DNA of 64,000 bases, from NCBI GenBank assembly GCA_903929885.1, contig CAIYWI010000023.1, positions 1-64,000 on the forward strand. The letters run 5' to 3'. Source of the DNA: an uncultured Phycisphaerales bacterium. GTDB taxonomy: Bacteria > Planctomycetota > Phycisphaerae > Phycisphaerales > UBA1924. The notes beneath the pieces are model-generated. The model worked only from the letters and a program-made list of their open reading frames with translations. It ran no database searches and was not told where the DNA came from. Positions 25,830-53,439 of this stretch are shown here, piece by piece (the stretch's first letter is position 1; each line of letters starts with the position of its first letter). The position numbers and the translations under genes were made by a program.

Positions 25830-25831
25830 TC

Positions 25832-30672: not shown

Positions 30673-30772
30673 GCTCCCGCCGAATTCCGTCTGCTCCCCC
30701 TCGGTCGCTCACTACCATGGGGTGTCCGGCGAGGCGGGTGTGCCCGCCGGTGTCGTTCCACGGAGAAGCCCC

Positions 30773-32125: not shown

Positions 32126-32598
32126 TGGCACGATGCCGCTCGATCAGGCGCTCGGCCGCCCTCTCGCCGCGTCGCCCCGGAGCGATGCTGCTCGAGTGCC
32201 TGTTGGCGCTCGCGCTGCTCGTCGCTGCGGGCGTCACCGTGCTGGCCTGTCTCGATCGGGCGGCCGATTCGGTCGCGCGACGCACGCAGGAGGTGGTCGC
32301 GTCGCAGGTGGCCGCCGCCGCGATGGCGCTCATCGATTCGGGCGCGATGACGCCCGAGACGGTGCAGGGGCCCGCCTCTCGGTTGCGCGACGGCGTGTCG
32401 GTGGCCGGGAACTGGAACATCGCCGTCGACACCGAACCCTCCGAGTTCGGATCCCTCGTGCTCGTGACCATCCGCGTGTTCGACGCCGGCCGTTCGGCGG
32501 GTGGCGATCAGCAGGCGCTCGCGCAGGCGAGGAAGCTGGTCGACCTTGGCGCGGTGCGTGATCGCGTCGTCGCTCCGACGCAGGAGGCGGCGAGATGA
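32116..32598 (+). CDS. Prepilin-type protein (GspI-like)
   Basis: RRPGAMLLECLLALALLVAAGVTVLACLDRAADSVARR; position in operon. Confidence 0.7.
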   Translation: MAMMARCRSIRRSAALSPRRPGAMLLECLLALALLVAAGVTVLACLDRAADSVARRTQEVVASQVAAAAMALIDSGAMTPETVQGPASRLRDGVSVAGNWNIAVDTEPSEFGSLVLVTIRVFDAGRSAGGDQQALAQARKLVDLGAVRDRVVAPTQEAAR

Positions 32599-34711: not shown

Positions 34712-34814
34712 GTTCGGGAGCAGCGCCCACGCTCACCCGCAGCCGCGAAGGAGGTTGAGTACCGGCACGATCAGACCGCCATCGACCGGGGCGGTGAGGG
34801 CATCCAGGAGCACC

Positions 34815-36446
34815 ATGGCCGTAGGACGCGAGTACAGCGTGCTTGAGATCGACGGACCCCGGCTTGCCGCGGTGAGTGCGGCAGTGACGGGCGACCGCAT
34901 CGCCATCCGGCGATGGCTGATTTCGCACCGCCCCGAGTCGCTCGCCGGTGATCAGCCCGATGCGGTGGGTGCGTGGGTGGGGGGCGAGTTCGGTCGCGGG
35001 CAACTCAGCCGCGCGAGGACGATTCTGGCCGTGTCGCGAGGCGATGTGGTCCTCAAGCAACTGGCGTTGCCGGCCTCGTCGACGCTTCGGCCTCACGAAC
35101 TCGCAGGCGTGGTTCGCTTGCAGATGGTGCGTCAGTTGGCGATGCAGGTCGACGGGGCGGCCATCGACTACCTGCCGCCGGTGCCCCACCCCGGCGAACC
35201 TGCAACGCCGTCGATTCACGTGATGGCCGGAGCCATGCCCGCCGATCGCGTCGAGTGGTCTCGTCGCATGGCGCAGGGCGCCGGCCTGAAGCTGGGTCGC
35301 ATCGGCTTGCGGTGCTTCGGCGCCGCCGCGCTGCTCTCGGACGTCTCGCAGCGACGTCACGGCCCGGTGCTGGGCATCGCCATCGGGGCCGGCTCGGTCG
35401 AGTTCGTCGTCGTGGAGGATGGGCAGTTGGCTTTCGCCCGAGCGGTCGATGCGCCGCGACCCGCCGACGGCGAGCAGCAGCCCTTTGCCGAACGTCTGGC
35501 CGTCGAGGCCAAGCGGACGTGGATGAGCTTCCGGGCGGTGCGGGCCGGTGGCGAGCCCGAACTGGTGGCGGTGATCGGCGAACCCGAACTGGGCAAGCTT
35601 GTCGGCGAGCGGGCCGCCGCTTCGCTTGCGTGCGCGTGGGATCTGGTCGGCATGCCCGGCTTCGTCGAAGTCCCTTCGACCATGACGCAGGCCGAGCGAG
35701 CGCTGCTCGCGCCGCTCGTCGGACTGCTGTGTGAGACGCTTCTTGGCCGGCCCTCGCTCGACTTTGCCAACCCCCGCAAGGTGCCCGACCCCGGCGCGAG
35801 GCAGCGACAAGTCGCGCTGGTCGGGACGCTGTGCCTGATCGTCGTCGGCGGCGGGGGCACCATCGTCGCCGATCGCCTCCTGGGCGACCTGAGATCGCAG
35901 CAGGCCGACCTGCAGGTCAGGGAAGTGGCGCTCCGCAAGGAGTTCGAGGCCTTCCAGGTCGAGCACGCCCGCGTGTCCCACGCCGAGCGGTGGGTGTCCG
36001 CGAAGGCCGACTGGATCGGTCATCTGCATGCGATCGCCCGAACGCTGCCGGATCCGACCTCCGGCGTGCTCGACGGCATGTCCGGGCGGCTCAACTCCTC
36101 CACGACATTCACCATGGCCTCGGGGGGCTACCTGAACGGCCGATGGACGCAGCCTGCCCAAGTCTCGTTCGACGTCTCGGGCAAGGTCGACGCTCGTCAG
36201 ACCGCCTCCGACCTCCGCGAGCGACTCCTCGAGATCGACGGCTACGGCGTCGAAAGTCAGGGGCCTGACGCCCCGGATCGATTCGATTTTGCGGTCACCA
36301 CCGCGAGATTGACCCCTGCCGACGGCAAGACGCCCTCGCAACCCGACCCCAAGAGCAAGTCCTCGGGTTCGTCACGCACCTCCGCCTCGCAGAAGCCGGG
36401 TCCGAAGTCGGCTCCGACTCCGGTCTCGAAGGAGGGCGGTTCGTGA
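34815..36446 (+). CDS. GspL/PilM-like actin-fold inner-membrane platform protein
   Basis: MAVGREYSVLEIDGPRLAAVSAAV...VVLKQLALP...; C-terminal TM LVGTLCLIVVGGGGTIVADRLL; operon position. Confidence 0.7.
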   Translation: MAVGREYSVLEIDGPRLAAVSAAVTGDRIAIRRWLISHRPESLAGDQPDAVGAWVGGEFGRGQLSRARTILAVSRGDVVLKQLALPASSTLRPHELAGVVRLQMVRQLAMQVDGAAIDYLPPVPHPGEPATPSIHVMAGAMPADRVEWSRRMAQGAGLKLGRIGLRCFGAAALLSDVSQRRHGPVLGIAIGAGSVEFVVVEDGQLAFARAVDAPRPADGEQQPFAERLAVEAKRTWMSFRAVRAGGEPELVAVIGEPELGKLVGERAAASLACAWDLVGMPGFVEVPSTMTQAERALLAPLVGLLCETLLGRPSLDFANPRKVPDPGARQRQVALVGTLCLIVVGGGGTIVADRLLGDLRSQQADLQVREVALRKEFEAFQVEHARVSHAERWVSAKADWIGHLHAIARTLPDPTSGVLDGMSGRLNSSTTFTMASGGYLNGRWTQPAQVSFDVSGKVDARQTASDLRERLLEIDGYGVESQGPDAPDRFDFAVTTARLTPADGKTPSQPDPKSKSSGSSRTSASQKPGPKSAPTPVSKEGGS

Positions 36447-37471
36447 AGCCCTCGTTCTCGCGACTGTCGGTCCTCCGCCTTTCCCGTCAGGGGGCGATTC
36501 GTCTCGCCGTCGTCGCCCTCCTGACCATCGGCGCGTGGTACGCCTATCGAACCGTGTACGCCTCGAAGCGTGACGCGCTCTTGGCAACCATGGAATCGAC
36601 GCGAAACGGAATCGCCACCTTCGAACGCCAACTCAAGGGACAGTTCGAGATCGCCGACCGGGCCAAGGCCTTCACAAGCACCACCTTGGGCACGCGACTC
36701 GACGAGGTCAGCGCTCGCTTTCGAGATGGTCTCTCGCGGCTTGCCGAGACGGCGGGGCTCGTCGGCGTCATCGTCGATCACGGGGAGCCGCAAGAGGTCA
36801 AGAGCCCCTTGCTGGTGGCCAAGTCGGTTCCGAGCCCGATCAAGGCATCGCTGCGATCCTCGAGCGACTTCAGCGTGTTGCGGGGCACGGTGCGAGGATC
36901 CGGCACGGTCGAGCAGGCCCTTGCCGCCCTGGCGGCGATGGAGGCCCAGCCGTGGATCCATCGCGTCGAGGGATTCACCATCACGCCCGGGGGCAAGGGG
37001 CCCGACCGCTGCGAGATCCGCATCGAGGCCGCCACGGTGCTTGCGCCCGGTCTGCGTCAGGGCACGCCCGTCGAGTTGCGGCTTGCGCCGCCCGCCGAGC
37101 GGTCGCTCGCGCTGGCGCAGGAGATCGCCGGCCGGAAGTCCTTCGCCAAGGCGCTCGCCAAGCGAGACGCCGCCGCCCCCGTCGTGACCTTGGCCTCGCC
37201 CCCCGGCCCCGGCGTCGCGACGCCACCGGCGCAGGCCTTCGCGCCGTACGAAGAGTGGCGACTGACCGGCATCTTCTCGGGACGCGCCGGGCCCGAGGCC
37301 TTCTTGGTCAATGTGCGGAGCGGCGAACGTCGGACCGTGCAGCGAGGCGGCGTCGTGCTCGACGCCGTGCTCATCGACGCCGCTGGAGAACGGGCCCTCT
37401 TCGAGATCGCGGGCAAGCGTTTCGAGGTCTTCAACGGGCAGGTCCTCTCGGCGCGCAAACCGGTCGGCTAG
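36443..37471 (+). CDS. GspM/PilO-like protein with C-terminal GspC homology-region/PilP-like domain
   Basis: N-terminal single TM (AIRLAVVALLTIGAWYAYRTV) plus coiled coil; C-term EEWRLTGIFSGRAGPEAFLVNVRSGERRTVQRGGVVLDAVLIDAAGERALFEIAGKRFEV. Confidence 0.65.
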   Translation: MKPSFSRLSVLRLSRQGAIRLAVVALLTIGAWYAYRTVYASKRDALLATMESTRNGIATFERQLKGQFEIADRAKAFTSTTLGTRLDEVSARFRDGLSRLAETAGLVGVIVDHGEPQEVKSPLLVAKSVPSPIKASLRSSSDFSVLRGTVRGSGTVEQALAALAAMEAQPWIHRVEGFTITPGGKGPDRCEIRIEAATVLAPGLRQGTPVELRLAPPAERSLALAQEIAGRKSFAKALAKRDAAAPVVTLASPPGPGVATPPAQAFAPYEEWRLTGIFSGRAGPEAFLVNVRSGERRTVQRGGVVLDAVLIDAAGERALFEIAGKRFEVFNGQVLSARKPVG

Positions 37472-37604
37472 GCGGGGCACGAGTCGTCGTGGAGCGGTTG
37501 GAGGGTTGGACGTCGCGGGGCGTCGTGGAGTGGACGGTGTCGCGGGCTGGTGGTCGCGGCGTTCGGAACTCGCAGTTGGTTGGAGCGGCTTGGAGGTCTT
37601 GTTC

Positions 37605-40600
37605 ATGAATCGTCTTCGCACGCATCGCCCCGAACTGATCGCCTCCCTGACGGCATGCGCCGGGCTGGCGGTTGGCGCCTGGGCGGGGCAGCCCCCTGCC
37701 CCCGAGACCCAGCCGCCTGCGCAGCCGGCGACGAACGACCGGTCGCCGCCGGTCGCCCCTCCGGCCAACGCGCCTGCCGCCGAACCGGGTCTCGTGCGGT
37801 TCAACTTCAAGGACGCGCCCATCGATCAGGTGCTCGACGCCTTCACCCGCGAGAGCGGCGTGCCGATCATCTACGAGGCGGCCATTCCGCAGGGCACCAT
37901 CAGCTTCATCAGCCCCGGCGGCTACGCCATGGCCGACGCGATGTCGATCCTGAACCTCAACCTCGCGAGGTTCGGCGTGCACCTTCGTCGTCAGGACCAG
38001 TACCTCTACCTCGCGACCATCCAGGACGCGATGAAGAAGCCCCTTCCCGTCACCGACGCCAAGGGGGTCGATGCCATGACGCCCGACCAGATCGTCACGG
38101 TGAGTCTCCCGCTCGACAACGCCCGCGCCGAACTCGTGGCCGAACAGATCAAGCCCATGCTCGGGGCGTACGGCGGCGTGCTCGCGGTGCCGGCGCAGAA
38201 CATGGTGGTGGTGGTCGAATCGGCGGCCCAGGTGCGACGCATCCGCGACATCGTGCAAGCCATCGATGCCGTGCGACCGGTCGATTCCGCCTTCCGCATC
38301 TTCCCCCTCCGCAACGCGCAGGCCGATGCGGTGCTCGCCGCCCTCCGCGGGCTGGTGGGCGAGCGCGTCACCACGGTGATCGTCGACGCCGACGGCAAGA
38401 AGCGCACGCTCCAGGAGCAGCAGGTCGCCGGCCTCCAGTTGGCCTCCGACCCTCGCACCAACTCCATCATCGCCGTGGGCACGGCCTCGCGGATCAAGAC
38501 CGTCGAGGAGCTCATTTCGCTGCTCGACACGCCCGATTCCGGCGGCGTCGACCGCCAGATGCAGACCTTCGTCGTGGCGGGCACCACGCCCGAAGCCGCG
38601 GCCCAGCAACTCAAGGCGCTCTTCGCCGGCGAAGATCCCAAGCAACTTCCGACGATCATCCCGCTGACCGAGGTGGGCAAGGTCACGGTGGTCGCGGCGA
38701 TGCCCCAGCTCGCCAGAGCCACCGCGCTGCTCGCGCAGCTCGATCCCGGCGTCACCACGTCGCAGGGGGGCGGCCAGGCGACCGGCGGCTCCAAGCTGGA
38801 GCGTCGCGCCGCGTTCGTGCCCCTCAAGTACGCCACCGCGGCGAGCGTCGAGGCCATCGCCTCCAAGCTCCTGCCTCCGAAGATGAATCAGGTGGTCAAG
38901 GTCGTGGCCGGTCCCGACGGCAAGAGCGTCGTCATCGCCGGGCCCGATGGCGAGGTGGCGAATCTCGAACGCACCATCGCCGCCCTGGACGTGCAGAACG
39001 CCAGCGAGCAGGAGATCCGCATCGTCCAAGTGACCGACGCCGATCCCGCCGCGGTGCTGGCCCAGGCGCAGGAGCTCTACGCCAAGGCCGGCAAGGCCGA
39101 GCATGCGCCCGTCGCCGCGACGGTCGATGCCGTGGCACGCACCATCACGCTCATCGCCCCCAGGCTCACGCTCAGGGACTTCGAGACCGTGCTCGCCGGC
39201 GTGCGTGCGGCGAGCGCAGGCGCGGTCGAGACGCGAACCTTCACCTTGGCGGCCAGCCGCCCGACCGTGCTGGCGGCACGGCTGACGCGACTGCTCGGCG
39301 TCATGATGCCCGCCTCGGGCACGGCCGAGATTCCCGACGTGCCGCCGCAGGTCGACGCCGTGGACGAGCTTGGCCTCCTGGTGGTTCGGGCCCGGGCGCA
39401 GCAGCTGGGCGCCATCGCGCAGCTGGTCGAGAAGCTCGACGGTCGCGACGGCACGCCCCGCGAGCTTCGCGTGGTGCCCGTGACCGAGGGCAAGGCCGCC
39501 GCGCTCAAGGATCGCGCCATGCCCCTGTACCTGCAGCAGGTGGAGAAGGCCGGTCCCGTCGAGGCGCTGGCCGTCACCGTCGACGAGCAGACCAACTCGC
39601 TGCTGGTGGTGGCCGCTCGCGCCGAGATCGATCGCTTCTCGCGGATCCTCGAGGAGCTGCAGAAGCAGTCGGGCCCGGCCCGCGAGGTGCGGCTCTTCGA
39701 GATCAAGATGGCCAAGGCCCAGGACATCGTGACCTTCCTGGCCGACATGGCGTCGTCCAGCCGCACGCTCACCGCCAAGGGCGGCGTCGAGCCGGCCTTC
39801 GAGGTGATCGAGGCCACCAACAGCGTGATGGTCGCGGCACGCCCCGACCAGATGCCCATCATCGACTCGCTCATCCGCAGTCTCGATGGTCGTCAGGCCG
39901 CCGATCGGCCGCCGGTGCGCATCCTCAAGCTCCGATCGACCGACGCGGCCAACCTCGCGTCGATCCTCCAGAAGGAGTTCGACAAGCGATCGCCCGACCA
40001 GCGAAGCCGCGACCCGGTGAGCATCGAGGCCGATCCGGGCACCAATACGCTGATCATCTCCGCCAGCGAAGCGGCCCTGACCGAGATCGAGTCGGTGGTC
40101 GCCAAGCTCAACGAGACGGAGGCGGCGGGGGCGGACGGTCGCGAGATTCGCATCTTCCCGCTCAAGGTGGCCAGGGCCGAGGATCTCGCCCAGACCATCG
40201 ATCAGATGTTCCCCGACCCGCCGGTGCCGCTCGACCCCAGGACGCGTCAGCCGCGGCTTGATCTCAAGCAACCGCGGGAGGTGGTGGTGCGGGCGGACCG
40301 CGCGACCAACTCGCTGATCGTCGATGCGCCGGTGCAGCGACTGGCCGGCTTCGAGCAGATCGTTCGCAGTCTCGACCAGGCCAAGGTCGCCGCCGACGTG
40401 GTCTTCCGCACGTACCGCATCGAGCGGGCCGAGATCAACAACCTGGCCCGCACCATCCGCGACCTCGCCTCCTCCGGCACGCTCGCGAGCATCGGCAAAG
40501 TCTCGACCGCGCCCATCAGCGTCTCGGTCGACGCGCCCACGCGCATGCTGGTGGTGAGCGGTCACGCCGACGCCTTCCCCGCCATCGAGGAACTCATCAA

Positions 40601-43600
40601 GAAGGTCGACTCGCTTCCCGAGACGTCGCCCACGGATCTCAAGCTGTACCCGCTCGCCAAGGCCCGAGCCGAACGACTCGCTCCGATCGTCCAGCGACTC
40701 CTGGCCTCGCGCGTGCGAGAGGCCAGGCTCGCCGCCGGCAAGGCCCGGCCCGACGACGACCGGCTCGTCGAGGTCACGGCCGACGCCGCGTCGAATACGC
40801 TGATCGTCTCCGCGCCCGCCGAGGGCATCGCCGTGGCCGACGGCATCATCAAGGCCCTCGACGCCGACAGCGTGGCCACCGCCACCGAGGTGCGAGTCTT
40901 CCGCCTGGGCAAGGGCGCCGCCGAGACCGCCGCCCAGACGCTCCGTCAGACCCTCAAGGCCCAGTCCTCGCCCGGCGAGCCCGAGGCCGTCGTGACGCCC
41001 GAAGCCACCAGCAACACCATCACCGTCGTGGGGACGTCGACGCAACTCGAGCGGGCCGCCAAGCTCATCGAGTCGCTCGACGTCGCCGTCGACATCGAGG
41101 GGCTGGGCGTCCGCACCGTGTCCCTCAAGCATGCCCGGGCCGAGGCCCTCGCGCCCGTGATGGAGCAGGTCCTCAAGACTGAATCCGGTCTCGATCGACT
41201 GCCCCAATGGGCCCGCCAGCAGGCCATCGCCCGCGGCGCGGTCGAGCAACCCCGCATCCGCGTCGCAGCCGAACCTCGGATCAACGCCCTCATCGTGAGC
41301 GGGCCGCGTTCCGTGCTCGACATGGCCGAGGAGGTCGCCGCCCAGCTCGACGTCGAGGGCGACGAGGCCCGCTCCGATGCGCAGCGACGCCTCGTGCGAG
41401 TCATCACGCTGCAGAACTCCGATGCCGCCCAGTTGGCCACCAACATCTCGGCCGTCTTCGCCGAGGAACGCTCCGCCGAGCCCGCGCCGCTCGTCCGGGT
41501 CGACCCGCAGGCCAACGCGATCATCGTCCGCGGCACCCAACGCCAGATGGAGCTCATCGAGCAGCTCACCACCAGTCTCGACAAGGCCGCTGCCGCCACG
41601 AGCCGCCAGATGCGGACCATCGCCGTCGACAAGTCCCGCGTCGACGCCGAGATGCTCGCCCGCATGCTCGAGCGACTCATGCGCCAGCAGGGCGGTGGCA
41701 AGGTCGAAGTCATCTCCGCAGAGGAACTCCTCAAGCGCCACGGCGGCCAGTCCGCCGAGCAGCCGGTCAGCCCGCCGGCCCCGCAGGAAGGCGACAAGCC
41801 CGCCGAGCCCAAGAAGACCGGCGCTCTGCACGTCATCCCGCTTCATCACCTGGCCTGCGGCCCCGTCCGCGGCTCGAGCGTCCTCTTCTCTCCGGCCGAA
41901 CCGCGACAGGACGCGCCCGCGTGGATGGCCTTCATCGCCGCCGCCGCGGTGGGCGTCGCGCCCGCGTCCGCCTCGCAGCCCCAGCCCGACGCCCAGCCCC
42001 CCGCGGCGGCCGCCGCCGGCGAGGACGACGACCAGCCGGTGACCATCGCCGTCGACAAGGCGACCAACTCCATCGTGGTCGTGGGCTCGCCTCGCCAGAC
42101 CGACCGCGTGGCCAGGCTCGCCGACCAACTCTCGACGCAACTGCCGGCGCAGCCCGGCCAGGTGCGTGTGGTCACGATGCCCCCCGCGTCGGACGTCGTG
42201 GCGATGTCGCAGGTCATCAACCAGACCATTGCGCAGCTCTCGTCGACGGCGCAGGGCCGCCGCAGCGCGTTCAGCGGTCCCGTCACCGTGACGCCCGACC
42301 CCGCGGGTTCGGCGCTCATCGTCTTCGCCAACGACATCGACTTCGAGACCGTCGGCGGCGTCATCGCGGGCGTATCCCGCCTCGACAACCCGGTTCGCAC
42401 GACCATCAAGGTCTATCCGCTGGTCAACATCAACGCCTTTCGCGCGTTGCAGGCGGTGCGGGACCTCTTCAACCCGACGGGTTCGGGGGCTCAAGCCCGG
42501 CGCGTGCGGAGCATGGACGTCTCGATCATGCCGCGGGGCGCAGGGGCCGCCGAGCAGCCGTCGCCCGCCTCGGTTCGCATCGATCCAACGACGGTTCGGG
42601 TGACGGCCGATCCGACGGGCACCTCGCTGCTGGTGGCCGCCCCCGTCGAGGCCTTTCCGCTCATCGACGCGCTGCTCGAGACCCTCGATCAGAATCCCGC
42701 GAGGGATCGGCTGGCCATTCGCCGATATCCGCTGACGCACGCCAAGGCCGATCAGCTCGCCGGCACCTTCCAGCAGCTCTTCGATCGTCAGCGACAGGGG
42801 GCCGGCGCGGCCGATGCCCCGCAGACGGCCTTCATCGCCGACGCCCGCACGAACGCCCTGCTGGTCACCGGCAGCAGCACGCAGCATCAGGAGGTCGAGC
42901 GGCTGCTCGCCGCGGCCGACGCCACGGCCGAGTCGCCCGATTCGTCGATGGAGATCCTGACGCTCAAGCAGGCCGCCGCCACGACGGTGCAACGCATCGT
43001 CGAGCAGGTGGTGGTGGGCAACGACCCCGGGCGGCGAGAGAAGGTTCGCATCTTCGCGCAGGACGGCTCCAACATGCTCGTCGTGCGGGCGCCCAGGGAG
43101 CAACTCGAGCAGATCAAGGAGCTCGTCGCCCGCATCGACACCGCCGAGACCGGCGGCCTGCCGGTGCACTCGATCAAGCTCGAACGCGCCGACGCCGATG
43201 CCGTGGCCGCCGCGTTGCAGCGGTTCTTCGCCGAGCGAGCCCAGGTCTCATCGCGTCCCGGCCGTCCCGCCCCGAATCGCGTGGCGGTGGTGGGGGACAA
43301 GCGCACCGGCACCATCATCGTCACCGCCGCCGACGCCGACTTCGAGCAGGTCAAGACGCTGGTGGCCACGTTCGACAGCCCCAGCCCCACGGCGGACATG
43401 GTCTTCCGCATCGTGCCCCTCCGCAACGCCAGCGTGACGGAGATCGGCGACACGGTCCGCAACATGGTGGAGGAGATCCGCTGGACGGCCATGACCAGCG
43501 GCAACGCCGAGGGGGCGGATCGTCAGGTCTTCATCCAGCTCAACGACGCCTCGAACAGCGTCGTGCTCATGGGCAAGGCGGAGCAGATCGCCACCATCGA

Positions 43601-46600
43601 GAAACTGCTGTCGGCCCTGGACGTGGCCCCGGAGCAGCGGGCCGCGATGGCGGTCCGCAGCGTGCCGGTGACCAACGCCGACATGGTCGCGGTCAAGTCG
43701 GTGCTCGAGAAGGCCTTCTCGACGCCCAACTGGCGCCCGTGGCGAGGTCCCGATCCCGCCGCCGTGACCGTGCAGGTCGATCGTCTCCGCAAGAGTCTCA
43801 TCCTGGTCGGCAAGGTGGAGCAACTCGACAAGGCGCAGGCCTACATCAAGGAACTCGACACGTCGCCGGCGGGCAAGGAGCGTCGCGTCGAGGCCATCGC
43901 GCTCAACCACGCCCGTGCCGAGCGAGCGGCCAACAACCTGCGTCAGTTCTTCACCGATCGCGCCCGCGGGCAGGGCGTCGACTCCTCGGGCGTGAGCATC
44001 ATCGGCTCGCCCGACGGCAACGCCATCGTCGTCTCCGCCGAGGAGACGGATCTGGCGATGGTGAAGGAGCTCGTCGCCCAGCTCGACCAGCCCGACGCGG
44101 GCAAGGATCGCCGCATCGAGCTCTTCGTGCTCCGCAACGGCGTGGCGAGGGAGACGGCCGACGTGCTGCGCTCCATGTTCACCAAGGCCGATTCGCCGAG
44201 CGAACGCGTGGTGATCACCCCCCAGGTCGCGACCAACTCGCTGGTCATCTCGGCGCCCGAGACGATTTTCGAGGAGGTGGCGGGGCTGCTCAAGCAGCTC
44301 GACGCCCCGCCGACCGCTGATGCCGCCAACATCGAGACCATCGCGCTCTCGACGGCCCGGGCGCAGGACGTGGCCACGGCCCTCAAGTCGGCGTTGCCGG
44401 CCAACGTGAAGGTGGTGGTCACGCCGGTGACGCGGAGCAACTCGCTCCTGCTCACGGGCAGCAAGGAGGCCATCGCGCTGGTGATCGAGCAGGTGAAGAA
44501 GATCGACACCGAGCCGGTGCGATCGGGGCAGGTCTTCCGCCGCTACAAGCTCGCCAACGCCGACGCCATGAGCGTCGCCGACACGCTCGAGCAGGTGATC
44601 CGGGCCCGTCCCCGCAACCCCACCGACGCCGAGACCTCGATCGATTACGCCCGCGCCGAGAACACGCTCACGGTCTACGCCCCGTCGGATGAGGTGGAGG
44701 AGATCGAGCGGATCATCCAGGAACTCGACAAGCCCAGCGAGGTCGAGCGGACCACCGAGTTCGTCAAGCTCGACTTCGCCAACGCCGAGCAGACCGCCAG
44801 CGCGCTCAAGCTCTTCTACGGCCGCACCGCCTCGGAGGTCACCGACCCCGCCGCCCGCAACGTCACCATCCTGGCCGATCCGCTCTCCAACTCGCTGGTG
44901 ATCCGCGCGGATGCCTCGCAGTGGGAGGGCATCCGGGCCCTGCTCGCCAAGCTCGACACCAAGGAGTACGACACGCGCCGCCAGTTGGCCGTCGTCCCGC
45001 TGGCCTACGCCGACGCCGCGAGCATCGCCCGAGCGCTCAACGAGGGCTTCCGCGCCCCGCTCGAGGAGCAGCGGCGGCTCGCGCAGGCCCGCGCGCAGAC
45101 GCAGCGTCCGCAAGGTCAGGGGCGACAGTCGGCGCAGAACGAGCCTTCGTCGCTGGTCGATCCCGAGGGGTTGCCCACCGTCTCCGCCGAGACGCAGACC
45201 AACTCGCTGATCATCTTCGCCGGCGCGGCCGAGCTCGAACGCATCCAGCAGGTCATCAGGCAGCTCGACGTCTCGGGCTTCGCCGACATGCCCGCCGCCC
45301 GGATCATCCCCCTCAAGAGCGGCAAGCCCTCGCAGGTCGCCTCGATGATCCGCGAGCTCTACCTCAACAAGAACGATCGCTCCTCGCAGGCCATCGGGCC
45401 CCGAAGCGTGCTGGTGATCGGCGACGACACCAGCGGCTCGCTCATCGTCCGCGCCGACGACGAGAAGTACGCGCAGATCCTCGCGCTGGCCCGCACCCTC
45501 GAGGAGCAGGGCCAGTTGGGACGCGTGCAGCCGCACGTCGTCAAGCTCCGCACCGTCGCCGCCGGCCGCCTGCGTCAGACCCTCCTGAGCACCTTCACGC
45601 CCACGGCCCGCGCCCAGGGCGAGACGCTGGCCGTCGAGATCGACCGCTCCAGCAACTCGCTGGTGATCGCGTGCAGCGATCGCCTGCTCCAGGAGATCCG
45701 CAAGGTCATCGACGAACTTGATGCGCCCCCGGCCGCGCAGGGGCAGGACGCGGGCAACGGGCTGCCTCCCTCGCTGAGCCAGAGCGTCTTCATCATCGAC
45801 GTGGCCAACAACGATCCTGCGCAGGTGAGGCAGATGCTCGAGAGCATGGGCGTGACCGGGCCGCAGGATCCGACGGCGCCCGGGGTGGTGGCCGAACCGG
45901 TGACGATCGTCCCGATGACCAGCCGCCGCGCCATCGCCGTGCTCGCCTCCGCGGGCGACGGCCGCACCATCGAGGCGCTGGTCAAGGCGATGGACGCGGC
46001 CCCCGCCGAGGCCGACCAGATCGTCGCGATGGTGCCCCTCAAGCTGGCCTCCGCCAAGACGCTCGCGGCCACGCTCAGCGCGATGCTCCAGCCCTCCGAG
46101 GGGGTCGTGGGCGCCACCCCCGGCAAGGCCCTCGCCGAGCACGTGCGGCGGCTGGGCATCTCTCGCACGGGCGTCGACCAGAGCGATCGCAAGATCGATC
46201 TGACGCGAGCCATCCGGGTGTTGGCCGACGAGGAGTCCAACTCGCTGGTGATCGCCAGCACGCAGGCCAACGTCGACGCGCTTCGCGATCTCGTCAGGCT
46301 CATGGACACGCTTCCCGCGGGCGACGCCGTGATGGTCCGCATCTTCCCCCTGGCCAACGCCTCGGCCGTTCGAGTCAAGCAGGTGGTCGAGCAGCTGTTC
46401 GCGCAGGGCGAGTCGCTGCGTCGCCTCCCCGGCACCGATCGTCAGGGGTTGCCACCGACCGCCGTCGGCCAGGCGCTGGCGGGCGAGATCGCCGCGACGG
46501 TCGACGAACGCACCAACACGCTCATCGTCGCCGGCCGCGAGGAGGGCGTCGCGCTCGTTGAGGTGCTCATCAAGGATCTCGACAGCGACCGCGCCGCCAA

Positions 46601-49529
46601 CTGGATCGAGCCGCTGATCATCCCTCTCAAGTTCGCCGACGCCTCGACGCTGGCTCGCACGCTTGACGAGGTGCTCGTGAAGGGCGCGACGCTCACGCCC
46701 GAGGCGATGGGCCTGCAGAAGCAGTTCGGCCGCCTTCGCGTGAGCATCGACGGCAAGCCCGTCGACCCCGAGAACCCGCAGGCCGTGGTGCAGGCCGATC
46801 TCTTCGCGCCCGTGACGGGCCTGGTGATCACCTCCGACGCCGTGATGAACTCGCTCATCGTCGTGGGCACGCCGTCCAACAACAAGGTCGTGCAGGCGAT
46901 GGTGGCGCAGCTCGACGTCGAGGCCGCCTCGGCCGCCAACGCCGTTCGCGTCTTCCCGCTCGTGCACGCCTCGAGCGACCGCGTCGCGGGCATGATCCGC
47001 GATCTCTTCCGTCAGCGAGAGTCCCTGCCCGACATGCGCCCGCAGGACAAGGTCATCATCACCTCCGACGTGCGGACCAACTCGCTGATCGTCGCCACCA
47101 GCCCCAAGAGCGTCGCCATCATCGAGGGCCTCATCAAGACCCTCGACGGCGAGAAGACCAACTACTCCGTGGGCCTGCACGTCGTTCCCGTGCCCGGTTC
47201 CGACGTGCGGCAGCTCGCCCCTCGCATCGACCGGCTCATGAAGGAACGCATCGCCGCCGCCTCGCGGGGCGTCGAGATCAAGAGCCCCCTCGATGCCTTC
47301 AGCATCGAGCCCGAGCCCGTGAGCAACCTGCTCATCGTGGCCTGCAGCCAGGAGAACCTGGTGGTCGTCAAGGAACTCGTGGCAGCCCTCACCGAGGACG
47401 CCGCCAAGGTCGCTGCCGGGCAGCGGACCGATCTCGTGCAGCTCACGCGTGCCCGCGCCGCCGAGGCCGCGCAGTCGCTGGCGGCCCTGTACGTCGACCG
47501 CGAGAACCAGAAGCGCGGCCGCGAGGCCGTGACCGTCACGCCCAACGAGCGGCTCAACGCCCTCGTGATCGCCGGCAACGAGCAGGACATCATCGAGTTG
47601 CGGGCCCTCGCCACGAGGATCGACTCGGCCGAGGTCGCCGCCCGCCAGCAGATCAAGGCCATCGAACTCCGCAGCGCGAACGCTCGCGAGGTCGTGCGGC
47701 TCGTCGAGGCCGTCATCGCCGGCCGGCCGGTCGGCGGCGGCCGAGGCGTCGCCGCACGCCAGGCCACGCGGCTGCAGTTCCTCCGCGAGGCCCTCACGGG
47801 CCAGGTCGTGGCCGAGTCGGGCCGCAAGCCCACCGAGGCCGAGATCGACGGGGCCATCAAGGACCTCGTGATGCTCACGGCCGACCCCCGCACCAACTCG
47901 ATCTGGATCACGGCCCCCGAGTCGATGGTGGCCCTGCTCTCCGAGATGATCGAGGACATCGAGAAGTCCAACGCCGGCGCCCGCAAGATCGAGAAGTTCA
48001 CCCTCGTCAATGCCGACGCGAGGCAGATGGCCCAACTCCTCAAGGAGACCTTCCGACTCGAGCAGCAGGGCGGCGCGCTGGTGCTGCTCCCCGCCGCCGA
48101 GGAGCCCGAGGGCGACGGTGCGTCGCCTGCCGACGCCGCCGCGCCCGCGGGGACACTGCCCACCGTCACCGCCGTGCCCGACGAGCGCCAACAACTCTCC
48201 ATCGCCGTCGACGCCCGCACCAACACGCTCATCGTCAGCGGCACCGACGAATACCTCTCGCTGGTGCGCAAGGTCATCACCGACCTCGACTCCATCGAGG
48301 CCAACGAGCGAGAGCGTCGCGTCTATTCGCTTCGCAACGCCAAGGCCCGCGAGATCGAGACCACGCTTCGGTCCTACTTCAAGGGCGAGAACGACTCCGA
48401 GCGCGCCACGCTGGGCCCGCAGCTCTCGGGCAGTCTCATGCGACGCCTTGAGCAGGAGGTCACCGTCGTCGGCGACGAGAAGTCCAACAAGCTCGTCATC
48501 TCCACCTCGCCCCGATACATGGAGACGGTGCTCAGCATCGTCAACGAGCTCGACACGCCCCCGCCCCAGGTCATGATCCAGGTCCTTCTCGCCGAGGTCA
48601 CGCTCGATTCGACGGAGCAGTGGGGCATGGACATCAGCGTCGGCCCCTTCGGCGGCGAGGGATACAAGATCGGTTCGCTCGCCGGCGGCAGCGGCGTCGC
48701 CACCGCCCTCGGCGTGCCCAACCTCTCCGTCTCCTCCGCCGACTTCGGCATCCTCGTGCGTTCGCTCGAGGCCCAAGGCAAGCTGGAGGTGCTCTCCAAC
48801 CCGCAGGTCACCGTCAACAACAACCAAAAGGCCGAGATCAACGTCGGCGACGACATCGGCGTGGCGGGCAACACCGAGCGGAGCAGTCTCGGCACGCTCA
48901 TCTCCTCCGTCAGTCGAATCCCCGTGGGCATCATCATGAACGTGACGCCCGCCATCAGCGAGGACGGCTTCGTTCGCATGGAGATCACCCCCGAGATCTC
49001 CCAGCTCACCAACCGAACCACGCAGATCAACCGCGACCAGACCTCCCCGGTCATCGCCAAGCGCCGCGTCGACACCGTCGTCACCGTGCGCGACGGTCAG
49101 AGCGTCGTGATCGGCGGGCTCATCCAGACCACGCAGGAGGAACGCCGCTCCAAGGTGCCGATCTTGGGCGACATCCCCGTGCTCGGCCTGCCCTTCCGCA
49201 CCAAGCTCGAAGAGGCCAAGAAGACCGAACTGCTCGTCATCGTCACGCCTCGTGTCATTCCCGGCGTGCCCGGGCAGGGACATGGCATGGCCGAGGACGT
49301 CTCCGAGCAGACCGTCAATCGCATGGAGGATTCCAGCCGCGTGCTGGACTACCTCGAGACGATCAAGGCCGACATCAAGGCCGCTCGCGACCGCGCACGT
49401 CGTCGCCAGCAGGAGGAGGCGGACGGCAACCTCGTCCCCGACGCGGACACCGACCGGTTGCCCGAGCCCGCCACGGTCATTCCGGCGCCCGAACGCCCGC
49501 AGCCGACGTACGTGCAGCCCAAGCAGTGA
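37605..49529 (+). CDS. gspD: Giant secretin (type II secretion GspD-like) with ~41 tandem N1-type domains, ~3974 aa
   Basis: Signal peptide; N0-like VRFNFKDAPIDQVLDAFTRESGVPIIYE; repeated 'xFPLxxAxAxxLxxxLxxxF...D.RTNSLIVxGxxxxxxxIxxLIxxLD' modules; C-terminal secretin QVMIQVLLAEVTLDSTEQWGMD...VLSNPQVTVNNNQKAEINVGDDI...VIGGLIQTTQEERRSKVPILGDIPVLGLPFR...LLVIVTPRVIP. Start ATG 37605 chosen for the signal peptide. Confidence 0.93.
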   Translation: MNRLRTHRPELIASLTACAGLAVGAWAGQPPAPETQPPAQPATNDRSPPVAPPANAPAAEPGLVRFNFKDAPIDQVLDAFTRESGVPIIYEAAIPQGTISFISPGGYAMADAMSILNLNLARFGVHLRRQDQYLYLATIQDAMKKPLPVTDAKGVDAMTPDQIVTVSLPLDNARAELVAEQIKPMLGAYGGVLAVPAQNMVVVVESAAQVRRIRDIVQAIDAVRPVDSAFRIFPLRNAQADAVLAALRGLVGERVTTVIVDADGKKRTLQEQQVAGLQLASDPRTNSIIAVGTASRIKTVEELISLLDTPDSGGVDRQMQTFVVAGTTPEAAAQQLKALFAGEDPKQLPTIIPLTEVGKVTVVAAMPQLARATALLAQLDPGVTTSQGGGQATGGSKLERRAAFVPLKYATAASVEAIASKLLPPKMNQVVKVVAGPDGKSVVIAGPDGEVANLERTIAALDVQNASEQEIRIVQVTDADPAAVLAQAQELYAKAGKAEHAPVAATVDAVARTITLIAPRLTLRDFETVLAGVRAASAGAVETRTFTLAASRPTVLAARLTRLLGVMMPASGTAEIPDVPPQVDAVDELGLLVVRARAQQLGAIAQLVEKLDGRDGTPRELRVVPVTEGKAAALKDRAMPLYLQQVEKAGPVEALAVTVDEQTNSLLVVAARAEIDRFSRILEELQKQSGPAREVRLFEIKMAKAQDIVTFLADMASSSRTLTAKGGVEPAFEVIEATNSVMVAARPDQMPIIDSLIRSLDGRQAADRPPVRILKLRSTDAANLASILQKEFDKRSPDQRSRDPVSIEADPGTNTLIISASEAALTEIESVVAKLNETEAAGADGREIRIFPLKVARAEDLAQTIDQMFPDPPVPLDPRTRQPRLDLKQPREVVVRADRATNSLIVDAPVQRLAGFEQIVRSLDQAKVAADVVFRTYRIERAEINNLARTIRDLASSGTLASIGKVSTAPISVSVDAPTRMLVVSGHADAFPAIEELIKKVDSLPETSPTDLKLYPLAKARAERLAPIVQRLLASRVREARLAAGKARPDDDRLVEVTADAASNTLIVSAPAEGIAVADGIIKALDADSVATATEVRVFRLGKGAAETAAQTLRQTLKAQSSPGEPEAVVTPEATSNTITVVGTSTQLERAAKLIESLDVAVDIEGLGVRTVSLKHARAEALAPVMEQVLKTESGLDRLPQWARQQAIARGAVEQPRIRVAAEPRINALIVSGPRSVLDMAEEVAAQLDVEGDEARSDAQRRLVRVITLQNSDAAQLATNISAVFAEERSAEPAPLVRVDPQANAIIVRGTQRQMELIEQLTTSLDKAAAATSRQMRTIAVDKSRVDAEMLARMLERLMRQQGGGKVEVISAEELLKRHGGQSAEQPVSPPAPQEGDKPAEPKKTGALHVIPLHHLACGPVRGSSVLFSPAEPRQDAPAWMAFIAAAAVGVAPASASQPQPDAQPPAAAAAGEDDDQPVTIAVDKATNSIVVVGSPRQTDRVARLADQLSTQLPAQPGQVRVVTMPPASDVVAMSQVINQTIAQLSSTAQGRRSAFSGPVTVTPDPAGSALIVFANDIDFETVGGVIAGVSRLDNPVRTTIKVYPLVNINAFRALQAVRDLFNPTGSGAQARRVRSMDVSIMPRGAGAAEQPSPASVRIDPTTVRVTADPTGTSLLVAAPVEAFPLIDALLETLDQNPARDRLAIRRYPLTHAKADQLAGTFQQLFDRQRQGAGAADAPQTAFIADARTNALLVTGSSTQHQEVERLLAAADATAESPDSSMEILTLKQAAATTVQRIVEQVVVGNDPGRREKVRIFAQDGSNMLVVRAPREQLEQIKELVARIDTAETGGLPVHSIKLERADADAVAAALQRFFAERAQVSSRPGRPAPNRVAVVGDKRTGTIIVTAADADFEQVKTLVATFDSPSPTADMVFRIVPLRNASVTEIGDTVRNMVEEIRWTAMTSGNAEGADRQVFIQLNDASNSVVLMGKAEQIATIEKLLSALDVAPEQRAAMAVRSVPVTNADMVAVKSVLEKAFSTPNWRPWRGPDPAAVTVQVDRLRKSLILVGKVEQLDKAQAYIKELDTSPAGKERRVEAIALNHARAERAANNLRQFFTDRARGQGVDSSGVSIIGSPDGNAIVVSAEETDLAMVKELVAQLDQPDAGKDRRIELFVLRNGVARETADVLRSMFTKADSPSERVVITPQVATNSLVISAPETIFEEVAGLLKQLDAPPTADAANIETIALSTARAQDVATALKSALPANVKVVVTPVTRSNSLLLTGSKEAIALVIEQVKKIDTEPVRSGQVFRRYKLANADAMSVADTLEQVIRARPRNPTDAETSIDYARAENTLTVYAPSDEVEEIERIIQELDKPSEVERTTEFVKLDFANAEQTASALKLFYGRTASEVTDPAARNVTILADPLSNSLVIRADASQWEGIRALLAKLDTKEYDTRRQLAVVPLAYADAASIARALNEGFRAPLEEQRRLAQARAQTQRPQGQGRQSAQNEPSSLVDPEGLPTVSAETQTNSLIIFAGAAELERIQQVIRQLDVSGFADMPAARIIPLKSGKPSQVASMIRELYLNKNDRSSQAIGPRSVLVIGDDTSGSLIVRADDEKYAQILALARTLEEQGQLGRVQPHVVKLRTVAAGRLRQTLLSTFTPTARAQGETLAVEIDRSSNSLVIACSDRLLQEIRKVIDELDAPPAAQGQDAGNGLPPSLSQSVFIIDVANNDPAQVRQMLESMGVTGPQDPTAPGVVAEPVTIVPMTSRRAIAVLASAGDGRTIEALVKAMDAAPAEADQIVAMVPLKLASAKTLAATLSAMLQPSEGVVGATPGKALAEHVRRLGISRTGVDQSDRKIDLTRAIRVLADEESNSLVIASTQANVDALRDLVRLMDTLPAGDAVMVRIFPLANASAVRVKQVVEQLFAQGESLRRLPGTDRQGLPPTAVGQALAGEIAATVDERTNTLIVAGREEGVALVEVLIKDLDSDRAANWIEPLIIPLKFADASTLARTLDEVLVKGATLTPEAMGLQKQFGRLRVSIDGKPVDPENPQAVVQADLFAPVTGLVITSDAVMNSLIVVGTPSNNKVVQAMVAQLDVEAASAANAVRVFPLVHASSDRVAGMIRDLFRQRESLPDMRPQDKVIITSDVRTNSLIVATSPKSVAIIEGLIKTLDGEKTNYSVGLHVVPVPGSDVRQLAPRIDRLMKERIAAASRGVEIKSPLDAFSIEPEPVSNLLIVACSQENLVVVKELVAALTEDAAKVAAGQRTDLVQLTRARAAEAAQSLAALYVDRENQKRGREAVTVTPNERLNALVIAGNEQDIIELRALATRIDSAEVAARQQIKAIELRSANAREVVRLVEAVIAGRPVGGGRGVAARQATRLQFLREALTGQVVAESGRKPTEAEIDGAIKDLVMLTADPRTNSIWITAPESMVALLSEMIEDIEKSNAGARKIEKFTLVNADARQMAQLLKETFRLEQQGGALVLLPAAEEPEGDGASPADAAAPAGTLPTVTAVPDERQQLSIAVDARTNTLIVSGTDEYLSLVRKVITDLDSIEANERERRVYSLRNAKAREIETTLRSYFKGENDSERATLGPQLSGSLMRRLEQEVTVVGDEKSNKLVISTSPRYMETVLSIVNELDTPPPQVMIQVLLAEVTLDSTEQWGMDISVGPFGGEGYKIGSLAGGSGVATALGVPNLSVSSADFGILVRSLEAQGKLEVLSNPQVTVNNNQKAEINVGDDIGVAGNTERSSLGTLISSVSRIPVGIIMNVTPAISEDGFVRMEITPEISQLTNRTTQINRDQTSPVIAKRRVDTVVTVRDGQSVVIGGLIQTTQEERRSKVPILGDIPVLGLPFRTKLEEAKKTELLVIVTPRVIPGVPGQGHGMAEDVSEQTVNRMEDSSRVLDYLETIKADIKAARDRARRRQQEEADGNLVPDADTDRLPEPATVIPAPERPQPTYVQPKQ
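38091..48560 (+). repeat. Tandem diverged secretin N1-type modules (~41, ~85 aa each)
   Basis: 41 modules counted by eye from the paired motifs PL-xxA.. and (T/S)N(S/T/A)LIV...; modules 3-6 are the most degenerate. Confidence 0.85.
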
Positions 49530-49553: not shown

Positions 49554-50117
49554 ATGCGTCGACGCGGTCGTTGTCGCATACCCTCTCCCGCCGTGCTGAA
49601 GGCGACCTGGTCATCATGCTGCCGGTGCATCGGGTGGCTTTTCATGGCCGCCGCATTGGCCGTTCATCTTGGCGGATGTGTCGCCGACGACGGCAAACGG
49701 CCGGCCGTCGGCAAGCCCCCGGCCAATGCCCGTCCCGGCACCATGTTTCTCGCCGCCCAGGCCTTCCGCGACACCAACGCCAACGGCTGTCTCGATTCCG
49801 GCCTCCTGACGGTCTACATCTTCCCGCCCAACTACCCCCGCTCCGTGCAGATCCCCGGCACCTTCGACCTCAAGCTCGTCGGTCGCGGCGGCGTCCTCAT
49901 CCGCGAATGGACGCTCGAGGCCCCCGGCCCCGATGTCGCCCCCGTCAATGCCGGTGTCGGTCCCGGCTACGTCATCCGCCTGAGTCTGCTCGACAAGGAG
50001 GGAAGCGATCAACTTCCCTGGCAGTCGGTTGACATCCTCTCCAGATTCACCGACCGCCAAGGGCAGTCTGTCGAGGCTTCGCCTACCTCCGTGCAAGTAG
50101 GTAGAACAAACCCCTGA
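49554..50117 (+). CDS. Hypothetical lipoprotein
   Basis: MAAALAVHLGGC lipobox; likely start ATG 49644 rather than 49554. Confidence 0.6.
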   Translation: MRRRGRCRIPSPAVLKATWSSCCRCIGWLFMAAALAVHLGGCVADDGKRPAVGKPPANARPGTMFLAAQAFRDTNANGCLDSGLLTVYIFPPNYPRSVQIPGTFDLKLVGRGGVLIREWTLEAPGPDVAPVNAGVGPGYVIRLSLLDKEGSDQLPWQSVDILSRFTDRQGQSVEASPTSVQVGRTNP

Positions 50118-50274
50118 CGACACGGCGCAACGCCGCGTCGGGGCTGCCCTCTCGCATGGGTGCTTAGCGCACTCTTATCCGAATCTTCGGACCGGGCGAC
50201 AACAATCATGCATCGCGGCAGGCACCTGGGCTGTCGTTCAGGCTGTGCCCTCGCCCCTCCCGGAGTCGCTCCAG

Positions 50275-51321
50275 ATGAAGAACCTCGTCGCCCCCTTGGC
50301 CCTCACCCTCCTCTCCGCCGCCTCCATCGCCGCCCCGTCGGCCGACGTTCGCCTCCAGGGCGCGGGCGCCACCTTCCCCAACCCCCTCTATCAACGCTGG
50401 GTGAGCGAGTTCCAGAAGACCAATCCCACCGTCAAGATCGACTACCAGTCGATCGGGTCGGGTGGCGGCATCAAGGCCATCACCGAGAAGACGGTCCATT
50501 TCGCCGGCAGCGACGCCCCCCTCAACAAGAAGGAACTCACCGCGCTCGGCGAGACCAACGTCGTGCAGATCCCCACCTGCGCCGGCGCCGTGGTTCCCGC
50601 GTACAACCTGCCCGACGTCAAGGAAGCCATCAACTTCACCGGCGAGATCCTCGCCGACATCTACGCCGGCAAGATCTCCAAGTGGAATGACGCCCGGATC
50701 GCCGAGGTCAATCCGGGCGTGAAGCTCCCCGAGATGGCCATCACCCCGGCGTGGCGCTCCGACGGTTCGGGCACCACCTACGTCTTCACCAACTTCCTGG
50801 CCACCCAGAGCGAGGCCTTCAAGGGCTCGATCGGCGCGGGCAAGCAGGTGCAGTGGCCGATGGGCCAGGGCGGCAAGGGCAACGAGGGTGTCGCCGCCGC
50901 GGTGCAGGGCACCACCGGCGCCGTCGGTTACATCGAGCTCAACTACGCCTTGGCCAACAAGATCAGCTTCGGCGCGGTCCGCAACAAGGCCGGAAAGTTC
51001 ATCAAGGCCAGCAACGAGAGCGTTTCGGCCGCCGGAGCGGGTGCCGCCGCGTCGCTGCAGGGCAGCGTCCTGGCCGCCAACATCTGGAACCAGCCCGGCG
51101 ACAACGCCTATCCCATCGCGTCGTTCACCTACATGATCTTCCACAAGGACATCAACACCGCCAAGAACGCCGACGAGGCCAAGGCCCTGCTCGACTTCCT
51201 GACCTGGTGCATCAACGACGGGCAGAAGGTCGCCGCCACCATGGACTACGCCCCGCTCGATCCCGCCGTCAAGGCCAAGGTCGAGGAGGCCCTCAAGACC
51301 GCCTCCTTCAAGGCCAAGTGA
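50275..51321 (+). CDS. pstS: Phosphate ABC transporter substrate-binding protein PstS
   Basis: LQGAGATFPNPLYQRWVSEFQKTNPTVKIDYQSIGSGGGIKAITEKTVHFAGSDAPLN; RSDGSGTTYVFTNFL. Confidence 0.96.
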   Translation: MKNLVAPLALTLLSAASIAAPSADVRLQGAGATFPNPLYQRWVSEFQKTNPTVKIDYQSIGSGGGIKAITEKTVHFAGSDAPLNKKELTALGETNVVQIPTCAGAVVPAYNLPDVKEAINFTGEILADIYAGKISKWNDARIAEVNPGVKLPEMAITPAWRSDGSGTTYVFTNFLATQSEAFKGSIGAGKQVQWPMGQGGKGNEGVAAAVQGTTGAVGYIELNYALANKISFGAVRNKAGKFIKASNESVSAAGAGAAASLQGSVLAANIWNQPGDNAYPIASFTYMIFHKDINTAKNADEAKALLDFLTWCINDGQKVAATMDYAPLDPAVKAKVEEALKTASFKAK

Positions 51322-51401
51322 TTGGCGGCTGGGGGCGACGGGCCTTGCGTTTCGTCCTTGCCCCCCCTCCCCGTCGCTGGATACGCTCCAACCCGGTCCA
51401 G

Positions 51402-51431
51402 AACGCCGCGATCCGTCATCGCGGCGTTTTT
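51402..51431 (+). terminator. Stem-loop terminator between pstS and pstC
   Basis: AACGCCGCGAT-CCGTC-ATCGCGGCGTTTTTG; may be partial (attenuation inside pst operon). Confidence 0.85.
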
Positions 51432-51450
51432 GTTCCCGCCGTCATCCCTC

Positions 51451-52554
51451 ATGGACGATTCCTCCACTTCCCTCTCCGACGATGGCAGCCGCCGGTCTCG
51501 CCGGCGACGACTGCTCACGTTCGCGGATGGAGCGCTCCTCTGGGGAGCCAGGTCCAGCGGCGTGCTCGTCCTGCTGATGCTGGCCAGCCTCGTCGTGGTG
51601 CTCGCCGCGGCTGCATGGCCCAGCTTCCGGGCCTTCGGGCCGGGATTCCTCACCTCCTCCGAGTGGCGACCCAACGAACTCGAGCGGCCCATGCGAAACG
51701 AGGCGGGCCAACTCGTCATCGAGGACGGCGAGACGGTCATGGAGGTCGTGCCCCCCGAGTTCGGCGCACTGCCTGTCGTCTATGGCACGCTGGTGAGTTC
51801 CGTGCTCGCGCTGGTCTTCGCGGTTCCGCTCAGTCTGGGCGCCGCGGTCTTCCTGGTTCGAGTCGCGCCCAAGTGGCGGATCGCCGGACCGCTCTCGTTC
51901 CTCGTCGAGTTCCTCGCCGCGATCCCGAGTCTGGCGTACGGCGTCTGGGGGCTCTTCGTCCTCGCTCCCTTGCTGCAGGATCGCGTCGAGCCGCTGCTGC
52001 GGTCGGTCTTGGGGCCGGTGCCGGGCTTGGGCTGGCTCTTCCGCGAAACCGTCGAGGTCGGCGGCCAGGTTGTCACTCGCGACATTCCCCTCACCGGCCG
52101 CGACATGCTGTGCGGCAGTCTGATCCTGGCCATCATGATCGTGCCGATCATCACCGCCATCAGCCGCGACGTGCTCAAGGCCGTGCCTCGAGTCCAGATC
52201 GAGGGGTCGATCGCGATGGGGGCCACGTGGTGGCAGAGCACTTGGTCGATGCTCCGCTACAGCCGCAGCGGGCTGGCCGGGGCGATCATGCTCGGGCTTG
52301 CCCGCGCCGCCGGCGAGACGATGGCCGTCACGATGGTGATCGGCAACAACAATCGGATCTCGCCGTCGCCGTTCGCCCCCGCCCAGACCATGGCGAGCCT
52401 GCTCGCCAACGAGTTCGCCGAGGCCAGTTCCACCCTCCATCGTTCCGCGCTCCTTCAGGTGGCGCTCATCCTGCTGGTCATGTCCCTGTTCATCAACATT
52501 CTGGCCCGGTGGCTGGTGGGGGGCTCGCAGGCCCACGCCGCCGCCGCACATTGA
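51451..52554 (+). CDS. pstC: Phosphate ABC transporter permease PstC
   Basis: PVVYGTLVSSVLALVFAVPLSLGAAVFL...FLAAIPSLAYGVWGLFVLAP...GLARAAGETMAVTMVIGN. Confidence 0.94.
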   Translation: MDDSSTSLSDDGSRRSRRRRLLTFADGALLWGARSSGVLVLLMLASLVVVLAAAAWPSFRAFGPGFLTSSEWRPNELERPMRNEAGQLVIEDGETVMEVVPPEFGALPVVYGTLVSSVLALVFAVPLSLGAAVFLVRVAPKWRIAGPLSFLVEFLAAIPSLAYGVWGLFVLAPLLQDRVEPLLRSVLGPVPGLGWLFRETVEVGGQVVTRDIPLTGRDMLCGSLILAIMIVPIITAISRDVLKAVPRVQIEGSIAMGATWWQSTWSMLRYSRSGLAGAIMLGLARAAGETMAVTMVIGNNNRISPSPFAPAQTMASLLANEFAEASSTLHRSALLQVALILLVMSLFINILARWLVGGSQAHAAAAH

Positions 52555-52578
52555 CCCCGCGATTTCCCCCGACCCCGC

Positions 52579-53439
52579 ATGCGACGAACCGCCTACGACC
52601 TGTATCGCCGCTCGCTCAGCGCCCTGATCTTCGCCGGGTGCGTCGGGTGCGCCGTGCTCATCGTCGGCGTGCTGGGCTGGGTGATCGGCTACCTCTCGTC
52701 CATCGGCGCCAGTTCCCTATCCATCGGATTCTTCACCGAACTGCCAAGCGGTGACGTCGCCAATCCCGGCGGCATGAAGCACGCCATCCTCGGCACGCTC
52801 GCCCTGGTCGCCATGGCCGGCGTGATCGGCGTTCCGCTCGGCGTCGCCACCGGGATCTACCTCGCCGAGTTCAAGCAGGATCGCTACATCCTCGCGCCCG
52901 TTCGTTTCACCGCAGACGTGCTCGCCGGCGTGCCCAGCATCGTCATCGGCATCCTCGGCTACGAACTCGTGGTCGTGCCCATGGGCAGCTACAACGGCTG
53001 GGCGGGTGCCTTCGCGCTGGCCTTCATCATGGTCCCGATTGTCGCCCGCACCAGCGAAGAGATGCTCCGTCTGGTGCCGGACAGCTACCGGGCCGCGTCC
53101 CTCGCGTTGGGGGCCACCAAGGCACAGACCATCACCCGCGTCGTCCTGCCCGCGGCCACCGGCAGTCTCATCACCGGCATCATGCTCGCGTTGGCCCGGA
53201 TCTGCGGCGAGACCGCCCCCCTGCTTTTCACCGCGCTGGGCAGCCGCCTGCTCACGCTTGACCCCAACAAGCCCTTCCCCTCGCTCACCGTCCAGATCTA
53301 CACATACGCTACCGGCCCGTATCCTGAACAGAAGCGTCTTGCCTGGGCCGGCATTCTCGTCCTCGTCGCCTTGCTGCTGGCCCTCAATGCCCTGATTCGC
53401 TACGTGGCCAGTCGGTCGATCACCCGGAGCATCGCGTGA
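52579..53439 (+). CDS. pstA: Phosphate ABC transporter permease PstA
   Basis: [35 protein letters not shown]...[21 protein letters not shown]...[18 protein letters not shown]. Confidence 0.95.

Follow-up and report, generated by a model that had tools for sequence, protein, structure and literature searches.

The window studied here, a 64,000-nucleotide stretch of DNA from an uncultured bacterium of the order Phycisphaerales, contains one very long gene whose product consists mostly of repeated modules. The locus raises the questions of what this protein is, whether its repeat array is genuine and old, and what so long an array might be for. The open reading frame spans 37266-49529 on the forward strand from stop to stop, with a first ATG at 37311. 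The ATG at 37605 is the likelier start because it clears the upstream gspM gene and opens a signal peptide, and the giant gspD gene was placed accordingly at 37605-49529. The predicted N-terminal signal peptide MNRLRTHRPELIASLTACAGLAVGAWAG (37605-37688), recognized by eye from the sequence, is followed by an N0 domain (37800-38090), 41 N1-type Secretin_N modules (38103-48563) and a C-terminal secretin domain (48765-49259; PF00263, E 9.3e-48) corresponding to the outer-membrane pore. The GspD model TIGR02517 matched both ends of the protein with 123 bits for the N-terminal piece and 325 bits for the C-terminal piece against a cut-off of 351, values that apply to two fragments and not to the whole protein. 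As the alignment of the N-terminal 465 residues (E 1.4e-35) began at model position 1, the N0 domain was taken to be present; the N0 model PF21305 alone matched weakly (E 0.022). The PilQ model TIGR02515 scored only 180 bits, compared to the 325 bits of the GspD model, so that PilQ was not the best match, and a profile of the C-terminal region matched the chains of GspD solved by cryo-electron microscopy (PDB 5wln, E 4e-48). The modules belong to PF03958, and an AF2 model of modules 9-15 comprised seven beta-alpha-beta-beta-alpha units (pLDDT 72) for which Foldseek returned the N domains of GspD, XcpQ and EpsD. No reliable module-module arrangement emerged from this model of modules 9-15 (pTM 0.25). 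Long antisense frames of 1912 and 2011 aa opposite the giant gene (37431-49283, minus strand) most likely are a by-product of high GC content and codon bias.

Upstream of the giant, forward-strand genes follow the order gspF-G-H-I-J-K-L-M, which is kept beside the giant in the genomes of relatives. The gspF gene (29449-30672) matched PF00482 (E 4.7e-48) and TIGR02120 (E 8.5e-91, below the equivalog cut-off), and the major pseudopilin gene gspG (30722-31297) scored 106 bits with TIGR01710, above the cut-off of 88.85. The gspJ pseudopilin gene (32595-33254; TIGR01711, E 8e-8) and a conserved-position gspL-like gene of PilM_2 type (34755-36446; PF11104, E 3e-4) matched below cut-off, as did the probable pseudopilin gene gspI (32002-32598; TIGR01707, E 5e-4) for which tblastn matches were present at the equivalent place in relatives. 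A probable gspH pseudopilin gene (31349-32125) is assigned tentatively from weak pilin matches (E 0.001-0.02) and position, and a probable gspK gene (33029-34711), the true start of which is downstream of 33029, from its conserved position and from matches only to T2SSK (E 0.06) and GspK (E 0.08). The probable gspM gene (36443-37471) had no family match and is assigned by position only, being conserved beside the giant in relatives. No gspE gene was found in the operon, and 13 T2SSE-type matches are located elsewhere in the genome. The region immediately preceding the secretion operon (17880-29333) carries flagellar genes, for FlgI, FlgK and three flagellin-type proteins. A phosphate-type ABC transporter (PstS, two permeases and an ATPase; 50101-54362) is encoded just downstream of the giant, and Pst homologs also adjoin the giant in three relatives (G001, G002 and G018); a phosphate-linked role for the secretion system is conceivable.

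From the GspD matches, the fold of the modules and the upstream gsp genes, the product of the giant gene is, as judged by sequence, a type II secretion secretin GspD with a greatly expanded N-domain region. It shares with GspD proteins (XcpQ, EpsD, PulD; TIGR02517) the signal peptide, the N0 domain, N1-type modules, the C-terminal secretin domain and the accompaniment of gspF-to-gspM genes, together with module fold and pore sequence. It differs in possessing 41 N1-type modules rather than about three (N1-N3), a number that does not define the family, and in the interruption of one module by a linker with a signal peptide-like stretch, at which some relatives have two genes.

The module count was established with an HMM that was started from Pfam Secretin_N hits and iterated over orthologs. 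Exactly 41 modules were recovered at residues 265-3751 (38103-48563), which agrees with an earlier note on this DNA that had described ~41 modules at 38091-48560; the refined HMM listed 42 entries because module 16 was then matched as two halves. Pfam alone detected 34 PF03958 stretches (1096 bits) and one PF00263 domain. Pairwise module identity averaged 26% with a maximum of 46%, and was independent of distance along the array. The best non-self match in a DNA self-BLAST of the giant was 87 bp at 74% identity, self-comparison detected no exact repeat of at least 24 bp, and TRF reported no tandem repeats within the array. Recent tandem expansion in the window's giant was rejected on account of this strong divergence and the lack of near-identical DNA copies. 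The earlier reading of the array as old, strongly diverged and devoid of long identical DNA blocks thus is borne out.

Misassembly, or a repeat collapsed or expanded during metagenome assembly, nevertheless merits attention as the window's genome is a 170-contig assembly. Relatives carry homologous single open reading frames of 3.1-5.0 kaa, and numerous independent assemblies contain uninterrupted homologous frames of 3.1-6.2 kaa; among them are the one-contig genomes G071, G196 and G077, whose giants have 50, 52 and 38 modules, and the pair G042/G252. The DNA self-match also revealed no near-identical copies that could collapse. Equivalent single frames in closed genomes and the absence of such copies refute an assembly artefact, in agreement with the earlier note, which had argued against one, and this explanation can be given practically no weight.

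The relationships among modules across genomes disclosed how the array has changed. All 41 window modules had collinear reciprocal best hits in the congener G001 (65% identity), and also in G005 and G013, so that modules cluster by orthologous position and not with their neighbors. A common module register covers families f1, f2 and f4; beyond the order (G029, G042, G082, G111, G252) module alignment resolves the register only at the joints described below and in the last modules. Copy number is not fixed, the window having 41 modules compared to 46 and 45 in two congeners (G001 and G002), yet was identical within some genera (37/37/37, and 40/40 in the part of the array covered). Whole blocks differ among relatives: five modules between window modules 6 and 7, four between modules 12 and 13, and two near the pore, the last separating families. 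The site of the missing five-module block is at 39447-39470 in the window. Within the proteins of about ten relatives, modules i and i+5 resembled each other more than any other pairs did, and their DNA still is 66-72% alike, which identifies the block as an old tandem duplication. The duplication is kept in most relatives, and window modules 7 onward match cleanly the second copy of the duplicated block. As the window is sister to G001 and G002, both of which retain the block, it most simply was lost in the window's lineage after the split from these congeners, as read from the sequences. Younger duplications of two-module and many-module blocks were evident in G029 and G082. The latter (L107; 6169 aa, 63 modules) includes copies with 74% DNA identity over 2.9 kb, such that growth of the array still is visible in some lineages. 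Orthology and block history together indicate that the array is old in sequence with a copy number that evolves by block recombination, and old tandem duplications of blocks account for at least part of the expansion of the N-domain region from about three modules to 41. The argument against unequal crossing-over in the earlier note consequently holds for recent events in the window's gene, but not for the family with its block duplications and the five-module loss in the window's own lineage.

Across 248 Phycisphaerae genomes, the shortest homolog frames had a few hundred residues and the longest 6,169 aa; some were split or cut by contig ends. Short forms possess 3-6 modules, and the giants 21-22, 30-31, 36-53 or 63. 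The named matches were MAGs of Phycisphaerales or Planctomycetota apart from one labeled Leptolyngbya, which probably is misnamed. No giants were detected outside the class among the phylum genomes sampled, where the longest frames were 1.3 kaa. A branch with 91/91 support separated giants from short forms in the secretin-domain tree, and the giants accordingly are placed by this phylogeny in one class-wide clade in the Phycisphaerae. One apparently misplaced short form (G203) proved to be a frameshifted giant. The short GspD-like homologs of the class (G032, G033, G036 and G058) have a related secretin domain, and gspF and gspG precede them by a similar distance, but they carry three modules and lie across the giant/short branch. 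Several family members had no giant match in the genomes searched, and the giant therefore is neither universal nor essential; the apparent absence from G024 was discounted as it coincides with a contig end. The window's genome (G000) also encodes secretin-like proteins of ordinary size on contigs C49, C72, C74 and C121, four in all and 790-941 aa long.

The array is under purifying selection throughout. The dN/dS ratio was 0.04 for the pair PLA1/SJ502 and 0.10 for G027/G031, with every module at or below 0.23, per-module values being rough since dS was 0.7-0.9 in both close pairs. These ratios bear on the proposal that the array reflects neutral or run-away expansion with no function related to length. 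Copy numbers that span 30-63 among the giants counted and differ by five between congeners, as well as the blocks recently duplicated in G029 and G082, might be expected of such expansion; low dN/dS in every region, conservation of positional identity across families and persistence in one class-wide clade run counter to it and render it very unlikely. Selection on length itself, suggested in the earlier note, is favored indirectly by the identical counts within some genera, but not by the range of 30-63 modules among the order- and class-level giants counted.

Conservation is uneven along the array. Modules 3-6 (38562-39446) matched the module HMM most weakly (23 bits versus 45, P=8e-5) and were least conserved (0.41), as the earlier note had anticipated. 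Its companion claim that modules 33-41 near the pore are the most canonical was contradicted by mean scores of 45.4 bits for these modules and 45.7 for modules 7-32 (P=0.87). There was a weak increase in conservation in the direction of the pore (rho 0.38, P=0.013), with peaks at modules 10 (0.78), 34 (0.73) and 41 (0.66). Modules 10 (40149-40382) and 34 (46338-46589) display 78% and 73% mean ortholog identity, far above their neighbors, and possibly are gates or partner sites. Functional zoning therefore exists in the weak modules 3-6 and in these peaks, although not as the zones originally were drawn, and the clearest boundary, the interrupted module 16, had been missed.

In module 16 (41613-42140), a linker of 100 residues (41739-42038) breaks the module behind the first strand and helix and separates halves at 41613-41738 and 42039-42140; a Pfam Secretin_N match spans the insert (E 6.5e-8). 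The linker contains an Ala-rich, signal peptide-like hydrophobic stretch, MAFIAAAAVGVAPASAS (41925-41975), with a hydropathy of 1.83. Nearly every order-level ortholog checked is interrupted at this position. The maximum hydropathy of the linkers averaged 1.54 in the window and 19 orthologs, compared to 0.18 for 100 other long inserts from the same proteins (P=1e-12), the orthologs not being independent even though their linkers are dissimilar in sequence. Many of the stretches resemble signal peptidase sites by eye, with A-x-A then QPE. Moreover, the module 16 joint is precisely where the gene is divided in two in G190 and G265, and the second open reading frame opens with a signal peptide; the two frames of G265 overlap by ATGA. 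A second joint, judged homologous from the half modules on either side of it, is fused in families f8 and f22; in f17 and f19 it is split, and the second frame again has its own signal peptide. In family f19 (L116, L117, L118, L120 and L105) a pair of neighboring genes separated by about 160-300 nt makes up the giant, and a signal peptide was recognized by eye in each. The chains from a split gene divide one module between them, its initial part closing the first chain and its remainder opening the second: HMM positions were 5-26 and 20-64 in G190, 6-28 and 24-66 in G265, and 7-37 and 33-68 in G052, several half-module matches being individually weak and some f19 halves recognized by eye only. 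Three overlapping frames in G039 resemble frameshifts and were left out of the split count.

The hydrophobic stretch may be no more than a remnant of an ancient fusion of genes, the mature protein being a single chain. Most members of the order have a single open reading frame, the stretch is only moderately hydrophobic in some orthologs (minimum 0.95), and no consistent start codon or Shine-Dalgarno sequence was found at the joint of fused forms, nor any close to it in G013, G006, G023 or CAJPFG. An internal translation start consequently is not favored; initiation signals in planctomycetes may be weak. Retention of the stretch in 20 strongly diverged linkers, unlike in other inserts, and recurrence of the same pattern at a second joint in other families are not readily accommodated by a relic, which is a serious possibility that falls a little short of an even chance.

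The periplasmic tower of a secretin usually comprises three to six ring-forming units. The best overall explanation of the giant, and probably the correct one, is a type II GspD whose 41 modules stack as the rings of a jointed tunnel that crosses the periplasm. By analogy with solved GspD and PilQ, each module would form one oligomeric ring, and the rings would build a tunnel from the inner-membrane platform, contacted via N0, to the pore. Assuming 2.5-4 nm per ring, our estimate for 41 rings is roughly 100-160 nm, which might span an unusually wide periplasm. The tower would be segmented at the joints, where one module would be shared by an inner, N0-side part and an outer, pore-side part that are separate genes in some families and one frame in the window; the putative signal peptide-like stretch of the latter may be cleaved. 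We infer the stacking of rings, the length of the tower, how well it fits the width of the periplasm and the cleavage of its joint. More specifically, and tentatively, a tower of >100 nm might consist of two chains, inner and pore, that meet at a ring to which each contributes half a module. Two genes would encode these chains in some families, and in the window's family they would come from one polyprotein cut at the internal signal peptide. The graded series of 3-63 modules is consistent with the tower, as is the coincidence of gene boundaries with the joint, where the half modules complement each other. Degenerate modules 3-6 count against it, as do the apparent lack of the gene in several family members, the unreliable AF2 arrangement of modules and the fact that we know of no secretin structure with more than six rings.

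Thermus PilQ, described as one of the largest secretins characterized, forms six stacked rings in a particle of 350 Å, and its extra N rings have been linked to a wide periplasm (PMC5745081). No account of giant secretins like those of the Phycisphaerae was encountered in the literature searched, which included few subscription papers. The giant resembles Thermus thermophilus PilQ as a secretin with extra N units but has ~7-fold more modules and a type II secretion operon with a GspG-type pseudopilin instead of the pil operon of a type IV pilus. Planctomycetes can have a greatly enlarged periplasm, as shown in another class, the Planctomycetia (PMC5394234). A link between the giant and crateriform structures was not adopted because isolates of Phycisphaerae are reported to be without them (PMC8882080).

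Stacking need not involve the whole array. Only the last few modules might form rings, with the others acting as flexible beads that tether the inner-membrane platform or capture substrates. The N domains of solved GspD are poorly ordered near the inner membrane (PMC5646249), modules 3-6 are degenerate, and AF2 assigned no confident relative orientation to the modules, all of which would suit flexible beads. Purifying selection acts on all modules, including those far from the pore, the inter-module linkers are short and compact, and where genes are split the break falls precisely within a single module, which points to a defined packing of the joint. Set against this evidence, flexible beads are rather unlikely and the jointed tunnel is preferred.

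The natural series of 3-63 modules makes it testable whether secretin towers match periplasm width. The giants bear on how a pseudopilus might work across >100 nm and on how planctomycetes secrete across an enlarged periplasm, and the joint, split in some families and fused in others, offers a way to study what holds N rings together. The giant of the window possibly is a bacterial polyprotein that is processed at an internal signal peptide.
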